This document shows positions 7,506-19,556 of a stretch of DNA of 61,420 nt, piece after piece. Each line of letters opens with the position of its first letter. Within the stretch, counting starts at the first letter, position 1. The translations under genes and the position numbers were made by a program. The notes under the pieces were generated by a model that searched no databases, was not told where the DNA came from, and worked only from the letters and a program-made list of their open reading frames with translations. The DNA lies in the NCBI GenBank assembly GCA_913060645.1, contig CAJXSW010000003.1:1-61420 (forward strand). Direction: 5' to 3'. This DNA is from an uncultured Dokdonia sp. (GTDB lineage Bacteria; Bacteroidota; Bacteroidia; Flavobacteriales; Flavobacteriaceae).

Positions 7506-7775
7506 TTATTTACGGATACCTAGTTCCTTAATAATAGCTCTGTAACGTAAAATGTCTTTCTTGATTAAGTAATCAAGTAATGAACGACGCTTACCTACTA
7601 GCATTACTAGTGAACGCTCTGTAACATAATCTTTACGATTTGTTTTCAGGTGGTTTGATAAGTGTGAGATACGTTGTGTAAAGATTGCGATTTGACCTTC
7701 AGCAGATCCTGTATCGTTCTTTCCTTTACCGTGCTTTGCAAAAAGCTCTTGTTTTTGTTCTTTTGTTAAATACAT
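7506..7775 (-). CDS. rpsO: 30S ribosomal protein S15
   Basis: 89 residues, the usual S15 length. The family signature is clear: GKGKNDTGSAEGQIAIFTQRI near the N-terminus, HLKTNRKDYVTERSL in the middle and RRSLLDYLIKKDILRYR near the end. It binds 16S rRNA early in small-subunit assembly. It is followed by a strong terminator and then pnp. A good promoter lies at 7830-7858, giving a leader of about 50 bases. Confidence 0.98.
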   Translation of the reverse strand: MYLTKEQKQELFAKHGKGKNDTGSAEGQIAIFTQRISHLSNHLKTNRKDYVTERSLVMLVGKRRSLLDYLIKKDILRYRAIIKELGIRK

Positions 7776-7829
7776 TCCAGTATTGTTTTAAATGAAATTC
7801 ATGTATATGATAGCGATTCTATCAGCGTG

Positions 7830-7858
7830 CAAAGATACATTATTCTTTGTATTATCAA
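7830..7858 (-). promoter_or_regulatory. rpsO promoter
   Basis: On the minus strand, TTG (7858-7856), 18 bases, then TATCTTTG (7837-7830). This is a perfect match to the Bacteroidetes -33/-7 pattern TTG-N17-23-TAnnTTTG. Confidence 0.75.
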
Positions 7859-9912: not shown

Positions 9913-10112
9913 AGAGGAGTATTTAATACTGTAAATGTAAGAATTGATAACGGGAGGAAATATTTAAAAGTGTGATGATCATTTAAGCTAGAGAGATTTT
10001 TAGATATAGGTCTACACCATATTCTCATTTTCATTAGTTTATAAGTCTTTCATTGATAATTCCTCAAAATGTACGCTTAATAAAAAATATTTCATAAAAG
10101 GATATAAATAAA

Positions 10113-10142
10113 TTGGCTCATTAGATATTTTTTCTACTTTAG
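10113..10142 (+). promoter_or_regulatory. Promoter of the aromatic operon leader
   Basis: TTG at 10113-10115, 19 bases, TACTTTAG at 10135-10142 (seven of eight matches to TAnnTTTG, counting the free positions). Transcription should start near 10149, about 11 bases before the leader-peptide start codon. Confidence 0.65.
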
Positions 10143-10159
10143 CAGTCAAATAAGTCAAC

Positions 10160-10240
10160 ATGTTATCAAACGTTTATTATTGGAACAATTTTTTCTATTT
10201 CTTCTTTTACGGGAAGAGATCAGGATTGATATTGTGCTAA
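10160..10240 (+). CDS. Phe/Tyr-rich leader peptide of the aromatic operon
   Basis: A 26-codon open frame, ATG 10160-10162 to TAA 10238-10240, too short for routine gene calling. Residues 6-17 read YYWNNFFYFFFY: ten of twelve are aromatic (five Phe, four Tyr, one Trp). It sits between a good promoter and an intrinsic terminator, directly before the genes that make phenylalanine and tyrosine. By analogy with pheA and trp leaders of Proteobacteria, translation should stall at these codons when charged tRNA-Phe or tRNA-Tyr is scarce. The composition and placement make chance very unlikely. I know of no description of this leader in Dokdonia. Confidence 0.88.
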   Translation: MLSNVYYWNNFFYFFFYGKRSGLILC

Positions 10241-10274
10241 TTTAATAACACTCAATATTTCAATAAGTCCTGAT
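10219..10274 (+). promoter_or_regulatory. Antiterminator pairing of the aromatic attenuator
   Basis: ATCAGGATT (10219-10227) can pair with AGTCCTGAT (10266-10274, one G-U pair), and TATTG (10230-10234) with CAATA (10261-10265), with only GA bulged out. This uses up the 5' arm of the terminator. The first strand begins 9 bases after the last aromatic codon, so a ribosome stalled in the Phe/Tyr run leaves it largely free, while a ribosome at the stop codon covers it. Confidence 0.8.
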
Positions 10275-10299
10275 AAATTTTTATCAGGACTTTTTTTTT
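10265..10299 (+). terminator. Attenuator terminator of the aromatic operon
   Basis: AAGTCCTGATAA (10265-10276) pairs perfectly with TTATCAGGACTT (10281-10292), followed by nine T (10291-10299). It ends only 8 bases before the pheA start codon, which makes sense only as a conditional terminator controlling pheA and the genes after it. Confidence 0.92.
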
Positions 10300-10307
10300 G
10301 CACAATT

Positions 10308-11126
10308 ATGAAAGTAGCAATACAAGGCGTACAAGGATCATTTCATCACAAGGTGGCTCAAGAATTTTTTGGGGTAGATGTCGTTGTGGTGGAGTGCATG
10401 TCTTTTCCTAGACTAGTAGACGCACTAGTAGAAGGCGAAGTACAAGATGCTGTAATGGCTATAGAAAATAGTATCGCAGGAGCAATACTACCTAACTACG
10501 CATTACTAGATAAACATGATTTGCATATAGAAGGAGAGTTTTACCTTGATATCCAGCACCAGTTAATGGCGCTACCAGGTCAAGCAATAAAAGATATAAA
10601 GGAAGTGTGGTCACACCCTATGGCAATCTTACAATGTCGTGAGTTTTTTAGAAACTTTCCAGACATAAAACTTGTAGAAGATACAGATACCGCAGGCGTA
10701 GCCAGAGAGATACAAGAAAAGCAATTACAAGGAATAGCAGCGATAGCCAGTACAGCCGCAGCAAGTATTTATAAACTAAATATTTTACAAGCGTCTATCC
10801 AGACTATTGATGAAAATGCAACCCGCTTCTTTATTTTAAATAAGGATAAAAAACAAGTAGAAGGTGTAATCGATAAGGCATCTCTAAGATTTTCGGCAGA
10901 TCATAAGCGTGGTAGTCTTGCTGCAATATTAAATGTGCTGAGTGATTGCAAGATGAATCTCACAAAAATTCAGTCCATGCCTATTATCGAGAAGCCGTGG
11001 AAGTATGCATTTTTTGTAGATGTAACTTTTGAAAAAATAGAAAGCTTTAATAAGGCAGTACAATTACTAGAGATCATGGCAAATGACTTTAAAGTACTAG
11101 GAGCTTACAAAAACAGAAAGCAATGA
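10308..11126 (+). CDS. pheA: Prephenate dehydratase
   Basis: 272 residues; converts prephenate to phenylpyruvate in phenylalanine synthesis. The catalytic domain (1-180) carries the TRF motif (ATRFFIL, Thr172-Phe174). An ACT regulatory domain (about 192-270) has GSLA (202-205) and QSMP (222-225), equivalents of the GALA and ESRP motifs that bind feedback Phe. No chorismate mutase is fused here; that activity is on the last gene of the operon. First gene after the attenuator; it overlaps the aminotransferase by ATGA. Confidence 0.96.
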   Translation: MKVAIQGVQGSFHHKVAQEFFGVDVVVVECMSFPRLVDALVEGEVQDAVMAIENSIAGAILPNYALLDKHDLHIEGEFYLDIQHQLMALPGQAIKDIKEVWSHPMAILQCREFFRNFPDIKLVEDTDTAGVAREIQEKQLQGIAAIASTAAASIYKLNILQASIQTIDENATRFFILNKDKKQVEGVIDKASLRFSADHKRGSLAAILNVLSDCKMNLTKIQSMPIIEKPWKYAFFVDVTFEKIESFNKAVQLLEIMANDFKVLGAYKNRKQ

Positions 11127-12265
11127 TGCAACCAGCAAATAGGCTACAGGAAACTAAAGAATACTATTTTTCGCGAAAGCTAAAGGAAGTTCGCGCACTC
11201 ATAGCAGACGGTCATCCTGTGATTAATATGGGAATAGGAAGTCCAGATATGCCGGCGCCTCCGGCAGCCGTTGCAGCAATGCTCAAAGGATTGCATGATA
11301 GCGTAGCTCACCAGTACCAGAGTTACACCGGTATTCCTGAGTTGCGAGGAGCCATGGCAGGTTTCTATAAAAAGCAATATGGAGTAATCGCAAATCCAGA
11401 CACTGAGATATTGCCACTTATGGGTTCTAAGGAGGGGATTATGCACATCTCGATGGCATTTTTAAATCCTGGTGATAAAGTCCTTTTTCCTAACCCTGGA
11501 TACCCTAGTTATGCTGCGGTAACAAGACTTGTGGAGGCAGAAGCAATTACATACGATCTTAATGAGGAGAACGGATGGTTGCCAGACTTAAAAGCACTGG
11601 CGGCTCAAGATCTTTCGGGTGTAAAGTTAATGTGGGTAAATTATCCACATATGCCTACTGGGACTAAGGTGCCAGATGGTTTTTTTAAAGAATTGATCGC
11701 TTTCGCGAAAGCGCAACACATACTAGTAATTAACGACAACCCATATAGTTTTGTACTTAATGACCATCCGCAATCACTGCTAGCAGTACCTGGAGCGTCT
11801 GAAGTAGCCTTAGAACTTAACAGTCTTAGTAAGACTTTTAACATGTCTGGATGGCGTGTAGGAATGGTACTAGGAAGTGCCGAAAACATAGGACATGTAT
11901 TGCGTGTAAAATCTAACATGGATAGCGGTATGTTTTACGGCATACAGAAAGGAGCTGTAGCAGCCTTAGGCTTAGGAGATGACTGGTTTGAGCATATCAA
12001 TACCATTTATGGACGCCGCCGTAAACTAGTTTATGAGCTTGCCGAAAGGTTAGGTTGTACATACGACAGAGATGCTGTAGGATTATTTGTCTGGGCAAAA
12101 CTGCCAGAAGGAATCGATGCCGAAGCCTTTATAGATAACATCTTACTAGAGAAATTCATCTTTATTACACCCGGAACCATTTTTGGAACGATGGGGAAAG
12201 GATACATCAGGTTTAGTCTTTGTGTAAAAGAAGAAGAAATTAAAGAAGCAATACGTAGATTTTAA
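11123..12265 (+). CDS. Class I/II aminotransferase, probably aromatic amino acid aminotransferase
   Basis: 380 residues, PLP-dependent fold type I. The PLP lysine is K237 (SLSKTFNMSGWR), with D205 (NDNPY) and the C-terminal Arg in YIRFSLC. Its place between pheA and tyrA suggests it transaminates phenylpyruvate and hydroxyphenylpyruvate; it is often annotated as aspartate aminotransferase. Odd point: the usual NPTG is MPTG (177-180), so the Asn that normally touches the PLP O3' is Met. Two TTTCGCGAAA palindromes lie inside the gene, read as FSRK (16-19) and AFAKA (193-197). It overlaps pheA by four bases. Confidence 0.9.
   Translation: MMQPANRLQETKEYYFSRKLKEVRALIADGHPVINMGIGSPDMPAPPAAVAAMLKGLHDSVAHQYQSYTGIPELRGAMAGFYKKQYGVIANPDTEILPLMGSKEGIMHISMAFLNPGDKVLFPNPGYPSYAAVTRLVEAEAITYDLNEENGWLPDLKALAAQDLSGVKLMWVNYPHMPTGTKVPDGFFKELIAFAKAQHILVINDNPYSFVLNDHPQSLLAVPGASEVALELNSLSKTFNMSGWRVGMVLGSAENIGHVLRVKSNMDSGMFYGIQKGAVAALGLGDDWFEHINTIYGRRRKLVYELAERLGCTYDRDAVGLFVWAKLPEGIDAEAFIDNILLEKFIFITPGTIFGTMGKGYIRFSLCVKEEEIKEAIRRF
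11169..11178. repeat. TTTCGCGAAA palindrome (coding)
   Basis: Perfect core near the 5' end of the aminotransferase gene, read in the F-S-R-K frame. Confidence 0.9.
11698..11713. repeat. CGCTTTCGCGAAAGCG palindrome (coding)
   Basis: Full 16-base element in the aminotransferase gene, read as A-F-A-K-A. Confidence 0.95.
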
Positions 12266-12343: not shown

Positions 12344-13195
12344 ATGAAAGACATTTACATCATAGGGTTGGGGCTTATAGGAGGATCATTTGCGCGAGAT
12401 TTGCGCGAGCAAGAACCTGCGGCAACTATTTATGGTATAGATGCAAGTGAAGCCCACGTAGCCGAAGCATTGTCATTAGGTTTTATAGATAAAGGCGCCG
12501 TACTAGAAGATATTAAAACAGCAGACCTCGTAGTGCTAGCAATCCCAGTAGATGTTGCTATTCATGTACTACCAGACCTTCTTAATCATATAGGAGAAGA
12601 TACGATTGTAGTGGATATGGGTTCTACTAAGCAAGCAATTTGTGAAGTAGTAGCATCACACCCTAGACGTCGTAACTTTCTTGCCTGTCACCCAATAGCA
12701 GGAACCGAGTTTTCTGGACCTAGTGCAGCGATTACAGGCTTGTATAATGGGAAGACTAATATTATATGCGAGGTAGAGAAAACAGCTTTTAAGCTGCAAG
12801 AAAAGGTGCTCGACCTATTTAAGAATATGGGCATGCGCATACGCTACATGGATCCGGTGTCTCATGATAAGCATATTGCATATGTGAGTCACCTCTCACA
12901 CATAAGTGCATTTATGCTAGGTAAGACGGTCATACAAAAAGAGAAAAATGAGCGTGATATTTTTGACATGGCGGGTAGCGGATTTGCATCTACCGTACGT
13001 TTGGCAAAAAGTAACCCAGTTACATGGACCTCAATTTTTAAACAGAATAAAGAGAATGTCTTAGAGACGTTAACTGAATACATTGCAAATCTCAACGATT
13101 TTAAAATGCTTTTGGAAAATGACGATTTTCAAGGAGTACATGATGAGATGGAAAACACGAACCACATTAAGGAAATATTAAACGGAATTAAATAG
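12344..13195 (+). CDS. tyrA: Prephenate dehydrogenase
   Basis: 283 residues; NAD(P)-dependent oxidative decarboxylation of prephenate to 4-hydroxyphenylpyruvate, the tyrosine branch. N-terminal Rossmann domain with GLGLIGGSFARDL (7-19). The signature HPIAGTEFSGP (about 111-121) holds the catalytic His region, and the helical C-terminal domain includes SHLSHISAFML and DMAGSGF. There is no fused chorismate mutase or ACT domain. It lies 78 bases after the aminotransferase and 59 bases before the revised start of the next gene. Confidence 0.96.
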   Translation: MKDIYIIGLGLIGGSFARDLREQEPAATIYGIDASEAHVAEALSLGFIDKGAVLEDIKTADLVVLAIPVDVAIHVLPDLLNHIGEDTIVVDMGSTKQAICEVVASHPRRRNFLACHPIAGTEFSGPSAAITGLYNGKTNIICEVEKTAFKLQEKVLDLFKNMGMRIRYMDPVSHDKHIAYVSHLSHISAFMLGKTVIQKEKNERDIFDMAGSGFASTVRLAKSNPVTWTSIFKQNKENVLETLTEYIANLNDFKMLLENDDFQGVHDEMENTNHIKEILNGIK

Positions 13196-13216: not shown

Positions 13217-13254
13217 TAAATATCAAAAGCCCGAAGCGGCACAAATTAAATGTT

Positions 13255-14337
13255 ATGGAAAATAAGAAAGAACTTAGAAATTGGTTAGACGCTTTTGGCC
13301 TTGATCACCCTCTTGTAATTGCAGGACCTTGTAGTGCAGAGACGGAAGCGCAGGTGCTTAAAATCGCTCACCAACTTAAAGACACAGATGCTACAGTACT
13401 ACGTGCAGGGATCTGGAAGCCTAGAACGCGTCCAGGAAACTTTGAAGGAGTAGGAGCACTTGGACTTAAATGGTTACAAAAAGCCAAAGAAGAAACAGGA
13501 ATGCTTACTACAACAGAGGTTGCAAACGCAAACCACGTAGATCTAGCTCTTGAGGCAGATATTGATATCTTATGGATAGGTGCTCGTACAACAGTATCTC
13601 CATTTATCGTTCAAGAAATTGCAGAAGCTCTTAAAGGAACAGATAAAACGGTGCTTATTAAAAACCCAGTAAACCCAGATCTAGCCCTATGGTTAGGAGC
13701 GGTAGAGCGTTTTTATACTCAGGATATTAAAAATCTAGGTGTAATACACAGAGGTTTCTCTACGTATGAAAAGACACGCTACAGAAATAATCCAGAATGG
13801 CAGATAGCGATTGATCTTCAAAATAAATTTCCAGATCTTCCTTTAATCCTTGATCCGTCACACATTGCTGGACGTCGTGATATTATTCATGATCTATGCC
13901 AGACAGGTCTTGATCTTAACTATGATGGTATCATGGTGGAGACACATTATGATCCAGATAATGCATGGAGTGATGCTGCGCAGCAAATCACACCAGCTAC
14001 GCTCGTACAAATGATGAAGGATTTAAAAATCCGTAAAGAAGAAGGTACAGAGGTAGAGTACAATAATAAATTAAACACATTACGTACTAAGATTGACGTG
14101 ATAGATCACCAGCTTATTGAAAGCTTAGGAAAGCGCATGAAAATCTCTGACGGTATCGGTGAGCTTAAAGCAGAAAATAATGTGTCTATCTTACAAACTA
14201 AGCGTTGGAATGAAATTCTAGGTAAGATGATTCTAGAAGGAGAGCAAAACAATCTTAGTGAAGAATTTATACTACGTGTATTTAAAGCAGTACACCAAGA
14301 GTCTATAAACCACCAGAAGAAGGTGGCGAGGTCGTAA
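13255..14337 (+). CDS. Bifunctional DAHP synthase / chorismate mutase
   Basis: 360 residues from ATG 13255. The open frame extends to a TTG at 13198, but that part crosses the palindrome and has no family similarity, so I use the ATG. Residues 1-250 are a DAHP synthase of the short AroF/KDO8P-like class (AGPCSAE, KPRTRPGNFEG, DPSHIAGRRD), the first shikimate-pathway step. From about residue 262 a helical AroQ chorismate mutase follows (LRTKIDVIDHQLIESLGKRMKI). This fused enzyme links pathway entry with the chorismate branch and is probably feedback controlled through the mutase domain. Last gene of the attenuated operon. Confidence 0.94.
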   Translation: MENKKELRNWLDAFGLDHPLVIAGPCSAETEAQVLKIAHQLKDTDATVLRAGIWKPRTRPGNFEGVGALGLKWLQKAKEETGMLTTTEVANANHVDLALEADIDILWIGARTTVSPFIVQEIAEALKGTDKTVLIKNPVNPDLALWLGAVERFYTQDIKNLGVIHRGFSTYEKTRYRNNPEWQIAIDLQNKFPDLPLILDPSHIAGRRDIIHDLCQTGLDLNYDGIMVETHYDPDNAWSDAAQQITPATLVQMMKDLKIRKEEGTEVEYNNKLNTLRTKIDVIDHQLIESLGKRMKISDGIGELKAENNVSILQTKRWNEILGKMILEGEQNNLSEEFILRVFKAVHQESINHQKKVARS

Positions 14338-14362: not shown

Positions 14363-14393
14363 AAAAGGCTCAACATGATGTTGAGCCTTTTTT
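14363..14393. terminator. Intrinsic terminator after the aromatic operon
   Basis: AAAGGCTCAACAT (14364-14376) pairs with ATGTTGAGCCTTT (14378-14390) and is followed by T. The A-run on the other side lets it also serve the convergent minus-strand gene ending at 14415. Confidence 0.9.
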
Positions 14394-19410: not shown

Positions 19411-19470
19411 GTTTTAGGAGCATCACCTTGTGGTATTTGTGGTATCTAGTTTCCCGCTTTCATTGCAATT

Positions 19471-19501
19471 CCTCGGGCCGGCTTCGCCAGGCAGCTGCGG
19501 G
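19471..19501. repeat. GC-rich hairpin patch
   Basis: A short GC-rich stretch in AT-rich surroundings, with GCCGGC (19477-19482) folding onto GCCAGGC (19486-19492) around TTC. CCCGC (19453-19457) and GCGGG (19497-19501) can close an outer stem. It may be a remnant of a dispersed element; I cannot verify this from one copy. Confidence 0.35.
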
Positions 19502-19556
19502 ATTTTCATTACAATCGGGGCTAGGGAGTTAAGCTCGTTTGCGTATGCTAGTGTTC

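Follow-up and report, generated by a model that had tools for sequence, protein, structure and literature searches.

The enterobacterial pheA (pheL) and trp (trpL) attenuators are the classic systems of their kind, and classic attenuation requires a ribosome that follows closely behind the polymerase. The attenuation mechanism of the trp/phe type is described in the available part of PMC1183508. In Bacteroidota, a putative attenuator before the B. thetaiotaomicron operon pheA>hisHb>aroAIb-aroQ>tyrA appears in Table 7 of PMC1173090 (2005), taken from Merino's prediction database. It comes from the same phylum and the same kind of operon as the locus analysed here and is probably the same kind of element (the sequences were not compared), but it is a database prediction, and the accessible part of that paper gives no leader peptide, codons or conservation. 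As far as the text of PMC9723704 (2021) is available, it reports a structured 5′ element before F. psychrophilum pheA that was found in other genera and had no Rfam hit, together with 'strong clues' of leader-peptide attenuation at amino-acid operons. That element shares the bacterial family and the gene with ours, but the same part of the paper gives no pheA leader sequence, pairing or covariation. Leader-like short ORFs were described in B. thetaiotaomicron (PMC7366714, available part). The Corynebacterium ilvB-II uORF attenuator (PMC10272879, available part) is also a leader-peptide attenuator found by comparison and has covarying pairs, but it belongs to another phylum and uses branched-chain codons.

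Here we analysed a stretch of 61,420 bases (the window, to which all coordinates refer) and the element that precedes its pheA gene. Like pheL and trpL, this element has control codons in a leader peptide, an antiterminator and a terminator that exclude each other, and a biosynthetic operon behind it. It differs from them in having no match to an Rfam leader family, in its TAnnTTTG-type promoter with no Shine-Dalgarno use, and in a single operon that spans both branches and DAHP synthase; moreover, Phe and Tyr codons (with Trp in 48/76 loci) stand together in the leader. TAnnTTTG is the sigma A -7 consensus in F. psychrophilum, according to the available part of PMC9723704. The earlier note on this DNA knew of no report for Dokdonia, a statement that has to be narrowed because at the family level a 5′ element before pheA had already been reported in F. 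psychrophilum (PMC9723704, same part). Attenuators of this kind are known, and one before pheA had already been predicted in the phylum; the present work adds the mechanism in detail, the extent of the element, its co-variation and the codon swaps. Lopatovskaya et al. 2010 may also contain predictions for Bacteroidetes. That study (PMID 20198868) is cited in the available parts of PMC4833913 and PMC10272879.

The pheA leader and its operon

The features of the locus are collected in Table 1. Base-by-base reading located the promoter-like element TTG-N19-TACTTTAG that the earlier note had described, and translation bore out its 26-codon leader frame with aromatic residues 6-17. Its perfect 12-bp terminator with nine T, 8 bases short of the pheA ATG, was found as claimed, as was the competing pairing of segment 2 with the core of the terminator arm plus an AT extension. 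The AT extension lay at 10253-10259 in the truncated fold, while 10261-10265 is the register given by the earlier note. Two of the nine T belong to the stem. The leader stop codon starts at 10238, and the gene upstream of the leader lies on the opposite strand. In the full-length fold, hairpin 1:2 reaches into segment 2.

Table 1. Features of the pheA leader and of the genes behind it (window coordinates)
Feature	Position	Strand	Details	Evidence
Putative promoter	10113-10142	+	TTG 10113-10115, 19-nt spacer, TACTTTAG 10135-10142	Read from sequence
Leader peptide ORF	10160-10240	+	26 codons + TAA, MLSNVYYWNNFFYFFFYGKRSGLILC	Translation; relatives
Control codons	10175-10210	+	YYWNNFFYFFFY, residues 6-17: 5 Phe, 4 Tyr, 1 Trp	
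Hairpin 1:2	10199-10218	+	10199-10206/10211-10218, separates control codons from segment 2	Folding
Segment 2 (antiterminator 5′ half)	10219-10234	+	Within leader tail	Folding, pairing tests
Antiterminator 3′ half	10253-10274	+	Core 10266-10274; AT extension 10253-10259 or 10261-10265	
Intrinsic terminator	10265-10299	+	Stem 10265-10276/10281-10292, 12 pairs, 4-nt loop, T-run to 10299	
pheA, prephenate dehydratase with ACT domain	10308-11126	+		Pfam PDT and ACT
Class I/II aminotransferase	11123-12265	+		Pfam Aminotran_1_2
tyrA, prephenate dehydrogenase	12344-13195	+		Pfam PDH_N and PDH_C
DAHP synthase fused to chorismate mutase (DAHPS-CM)	13252-14337	+	Start ATG 13252 assumed	Pfam DAHP_synth_1 and CM_2
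Terminator-like hairpin	14363-14391	+	13 pairs, T-rich tail, after DAHPS-CM gene	

We assign the element with high confidence to the ribosome-mediated transcription attenuators of the trp/phe type; as judged from sequence, it is very probably a real, working attenuator of the classic kind. RNA polymerase would start near 10147, the predicted transcription start, and the ribosome would enter at 10160. With Phe-tRNA or Tyr-tRNA scarce, the ribosome would stall in codons 6-17 and leave segment 2 free; segment 2 would then pair with 10266-10274, no terminator would form, and pheA-aminotransferase-tyrA-DAHPS/CM would be read. With plentiful amino acids, the ribosome would reach the stop at 10238 and cover segment 2, the terminator would form and transcription would end near 10299. 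We infer in vivo transcription and translation of the leader as well as a response of termination to Phe and Tyr; for Trp, sensing through its single codon is possible but weak.

Pfam searches confirmed the operon of pheA, aminotransferase, tyrA and DAHP synthase-chorismate mutase that had been claimed, and by these assignments the downstream genes make the amino acids that would be sensed, Phe and Tyr. The hairpin behind the last gene is likely the end of the operon. The aminotransferase gene directly followed pheA in 18/18 loci of the genus, 28/28 of the family and 80/80 named loci (best 80 of 121), and in 18/29, 9/15 and 3/21 loci of the order, class and phylum searches, respectively. The window's aminotransferase scored best against LL-diaminopimelate aminotransferase models, below their cut-offs; its presumed substrate is assigned from the operon context only.

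A joint rule asked for an ATG frame with at least six F/Y/W in a stretch of 13 residues and, no more than 75 nt away, a hairpin with a T-run. Counted over both strands, the window has five leader frames and 256 terminator calls, and the single joint match was the pheA leader site. The scan of the whole window gave no Rfam family at gathering score for this leader; a search of 10000-10330 at E values up to 5 found no T-box or amino-acid leader family, and neither kind was found at gathering score in seven loci of relatives. Elsewhere in the window, the Rfam S15-Flavobacteria ribosomal protein leader RF03161 matched 7773-7837 on the minus strand with 57.5 bits, directly before an 89-residue frame (7506-7775, also minus strand), and there was a weak Thr-rich short ORF at 19423-19509 (minus strand).

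In the same genome, a His leader (MNNNNTHHHHTSIIAQAR) with a terminator precedes hisG (L132, 1202-1258 and 1282-1314), and a Trp leader (MKNNTVHTWWWITQQSLS) with a terminator precedes a chorismate-binding gene taken as trpE (L135, 751-807 and 833-853). No leader with a terminator was found upstream of ilvD in this genome.

Conservation and coupled change in relatives

Loci of relatives were the best or listed matches rather than a random draw. The joint rule was matched before pheA in 18/18 genomes of the genus (the window's own included), in the 28/28 best-scoring other loci of the family and in 18/20 family genomes picked at intervals from the list of matches, where L102 could not be placed and L099 gave no hit. 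The order search gave 15/29 loci, made up of 6/6 from the window's own family and 9/23 from other families (L069 not placed), and the class search gave 10/15. Three of the 21 new loci of the phylum search matched, two labelled as the same class (L111, L112) and one as the same phylum (L113); outside the class the rule matched 1/19 loci. Among the named relatives (best 80 of 121), leader and terminator were present in all 78 loci with sufficient upstream DNA, L155 and L186 being left out as too short; the carriers include Dokdonia, Flavobacterium, Polaribacter, Tenacibaculum, Algibacter and others. The pheA loci without a match to the rule were L052-L054, L058, L060, L061, L064, L065, L070, L071, L073-L076, L079, L080, L084, L090, L099 and L114-L131. 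By eye, L052-L054 and L080 have short leaders with five aromatics, which the rule missed. Upstream of pheA in L084, also inspected by eye, the terminator and a promoter-like TACATTTG are kept and the leader is apparently lost. Two leader-terminator units stand in series before pheA in L072, L112 and L087; in L072 and L112, each unit has its own segment 2 (by eye).

The sequence TAnnTTnG occurred at most 45 nt before the leader start in 63/75 loci (6.3 in shuffles), with TTG 17-21 nt above it in 46/75. In the 26 leaders that align from the stop, compared as pairs of related sequences that are not independent, nonsynonymous change per site was 0.38 of synonymous change for the aromatic run and 0.24 for the tail, which is under constraint from RNA structure too.

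A covariance model of the pheA leader (R1) matched 83/100 family genomes at E values up to 0.01, a count that is only an upper bound for aromatic attenuators because some of the inspected matches have no aromatic gene behind them. Eleven matches were inspected: four lay before pheA (L239-L241, L243), one before DAHP synthase (L234) and one before phenylalanine hydroxylase (L236), L233 was a leader at a contig end in an assembly with 6% contamination, and no aromatic gene was seen behind four weak matches (L235, L237, L238, L242). In the window's own genome, R1 found the window site (94 bits) and otherwise only matches with E 0.26 and 0.93; the former (L244) has no leader or long frame and was rejected.

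Of 109 loci, 76 satisfied a strict automatic rule (unbroken stem and T-run) and were used for the pairing analysis; some of the 33 loci dropped have no element and others an imperfect stem. As this rule demanded an unbroken stem, complementarity of the two terminator arms (arm 3 and arm 4) is no independent result. In a MAFFT alignment (A1), segment 2 was one column off between clades, so the covariation count made on it was dropped and replaced by a search for ungapped helices with foreign-arm and shuffle controls. A perfect 6-bp helix between segment 2 and arm 3, with at least three GC pairs, was present in 71/76 loci, compared to fractions of 0.358 with arms of another core and 0.088 with shuffled regions; it was missing in L049, L050, L081, L085 and L087. 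Segment 2 changes together with the terminator, as in the following arm 3/segment 2/arm 4 combinations: GTCCTG/CAGGAC/CAGGAC, GTCTCG/CGAGGC/CGAGAC, TCCCGC/GCGGGA/GCGGGA, GTTCCG/CGGAAC/CGGAAC and GACCGC/GCGGTC/GCGGTT. An antiterminator that excludes the terminator is backed by these coupled changes. The median distance from the start of the helix to the stop codon is 16 nt, and the matching spacing across loci is partly due to common ancestry. By RNAduplex energies, at most 3/60 shuffles were as good in 66/76 loci. In only 13/76 loci did the own tail outperform every foreign tail of another core, and on average 10.8% of the foreign tails of another arm core paired more strongly by energy. The earlier note had proposed an alignment with other Flavobacteriaceae; leader peptide and both pairings do recur in relatives, with the antiterminator 5′ half changing with the terminator. 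The analysis shows the anatomy of the element, its conservation, the coupled change of segment 2 and terminator, and the geometry described below.

Folding, ribosome position and alternative explanations

The full leader of the window folded as hairpin 1:2 plus terminator (z -4.55, 0/200 shuffles equally stable). When the 3′ arm of the terminator was absent, the antiterminator pairing appeared in the minimum free energy structure, and when it was present, the terminator formed. The truncated fold as a whole was unremarkable (z -1.01, 32/200 shuffles as good), and at the window locus alone 5/60 shuffles of the leader tail paired equally well with the terminator arm; support for the pairing comes from the relatives.

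Ribosome geometry was modelled with an assumed leading edge 13 nt past the start of the A site and a polymerase that has made arm 3 and not arm 4. Across the 76 loci, the mean probability of pairing between segment 2 and arm 3, P(2:3), was 0.92 with aromatic codons in the A site, 0.62 without a ribosome and 0.000 at the stop, the last being fixed by construction, as segment 2 then lies under the assumed footprint. In 75/76 loci, three or more aromatic codons had P(2:3) of at least 0.5, so that the stall geometry proposed by the earlier note works there, as computed with the assumed footprint. At the window locus, P(2:3) is 0.98 with Tyr17 in the A site and 0.03 with Gly18. In 57/76 loci, the aromatic run ends exactly at the final codon from which segment 2 is still free, not counting aromatics more than three codons beyond the switch point; if the edge is set to 10 or 16 nt, this agreement moves by one codon and is again seen in 57/76. 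Before the switch point 676/1169 codons were aromatic vs. 44/588 after it (76 loci). Equilibrium folding of the untranslated state still favours the antiterminator on average, and not uniformly termination. A role of hairpin 1:2 as a protector that would give termination without translation is not established in this model, because P(2:3) without a ribosome averages 0.62 even though the hairpin is present.

Four other explanations were weighed. A fixed terminator that lowers pheA constitutively, with the aromatic ORF as a by-product of a U-rich stretch, would profit from the fact that U-rich DNA makes Phe codons cheap, and L084 is a case of a terminator without a leader. We consider it very improbable, as the upstream gene lies on the opposite strand with a conserved promoter in between, the peptide shows less nonsynonymous than synonymous change, segment 2 tracks the terminator arm, and U-richness leaves the WW or YYYY leaders before other genes unexplained. 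Less probable again is translational control, in which the hairpin would hide the pheA start site and not end transcription. The T-run of the window, ending 8 nt before the ATG, suits this idea, but in the 76 loci (where a T-run was part of the selection) the gap between stem and pheA ranges from 12 to 245 nt, in many of them too wide for the start to be hidden, and F. psychrophilum mRNAs have no Shine-Dalgarno sites (PMC9723704, available part).

The two remaining explanations rank lowest, and equally so. Control by T-box or TRAP regulates aromatic operons of other phyla, which speaks for a T-box, riboswitch or protein-binding leader that would sense uncharged tRNA or a metabolite directly, as do the best sub-threshold Rfam matches at the leader (search at E up to 5; VrrA with E 0.0012 and the PyrR binding site with E 0.017, neither reaching its gathering score). 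Against such a leader, no Rfam family reached gathering score, no T-box appeared even at E up to 5, and the conserved part is a coding frame whose codons vary with the downstream gene. In tnaC-type leaders, arrest is caused by the nascent peptide, and a peptide core kept at the amino-acid level would agree with such arrest in place of stalling at hungry codons. The order and number of F, Y and W differ between clades, though, and other genes are preceded by WW or YYYY leaders; this variation fits codon reading and not a single arrest peptide.

Classic attenuation by codon reading, if true, would imply tight transcription-translation coupling in a phylum that starts translation without Shine-Dalgarno sites. 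To our knowledge, coupling of such kind has been little tested in Bacteroidota. The recurrent leader geometry in many Bacteroidia makes it directly testable, and the leader could become a new Rfam leader family.

Control codons before other genes

Bacteroidia probably hold widespread aromatic attenuators, belonging to no Rfam family, whose codons are re-set with the pathway: Phe and Tyr where pheA-tyrA follows; Phe without Tyr, in two serial units, where pheA follows and tyrA is missing from the operon; Tyr where the gene is phenylalanine hydroxylase; and Trp where it is DAHP synthase in a genome with no detectable pheA. Such natural swaps from Phe/Tyr to Trp or Tyr act like mutants made by evolution and hint at the amino acid that counts as the product for the cell. 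In the open-licence literature searched, as far as its texts were available, neither the Tyr leaders of phenylalanine hydroxylase nor the Trp leaders of DAHP synthase were mentioned.

No pheA match was obtained in 31/299 family genomes, and the 20 of these that were listed were searched for DAHP synthase; 16/20 have a close relative of the window's gene. After exclusion of L245 (behind tyrA) and L260 (contig edge), 14 loci were left. A leader and terminator stand directly before a stand-alone DAHP synthase-chorismate mutase gene in 7/14, with Trp-Trp in six leaders (L247-L251, L258) and a single Trp in L246. No leader was accepted before DAHP synthase in the other seven (L252-L257, L259); the script's proposal for L256, a frame of 10 residues and a weak hairpin, was rejected.

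For phenylalanine 4-hydroxylase, 26 genomes were searched and three close relatives were found (matches of about 30% identity aside), of which that of L236 passes the NCBIfam cut-off. All three (L236/L275, L276, L277) are preceded by a Tyr-rich leader and a terminator. The leaders are MKNLNNTYYYYPILTRRIGQ, MNNNCTYYYYYTDPNWN and MKTNRIYTIYMYTFYHRWRAR, the third also with one Phe and one Trp. If true, a Tyr leader would make phenylalanine hydroxylase a tyrosine biosynthesis enzyme in these genomes. Codon identity follows the downstream gene, as codon reading predicts. Evidence for the segment 2 pairing is weaker in the ten loci with Trp or Tyr leaders, where at most 10/100 shuffles were as good in 7/10. 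L246, L249 and L251 miss this level; the script took the wrong hairpin in L246 and L249, and by eye a 7-bp and a 5-bp pairing exist there.

The claim that one leader senses both Phe and Tyr fits the wider set, in which Tyr codons occur in 75/76 pheA leaders. The exception, L072, belongs to one of the three hydroxylase genomes (G338), which also has pheA. Both of its serial leaders hold Phe and no Tyr, and they precede the operon pheA-aminotransferase-DAHPS, which does not include tyrA.
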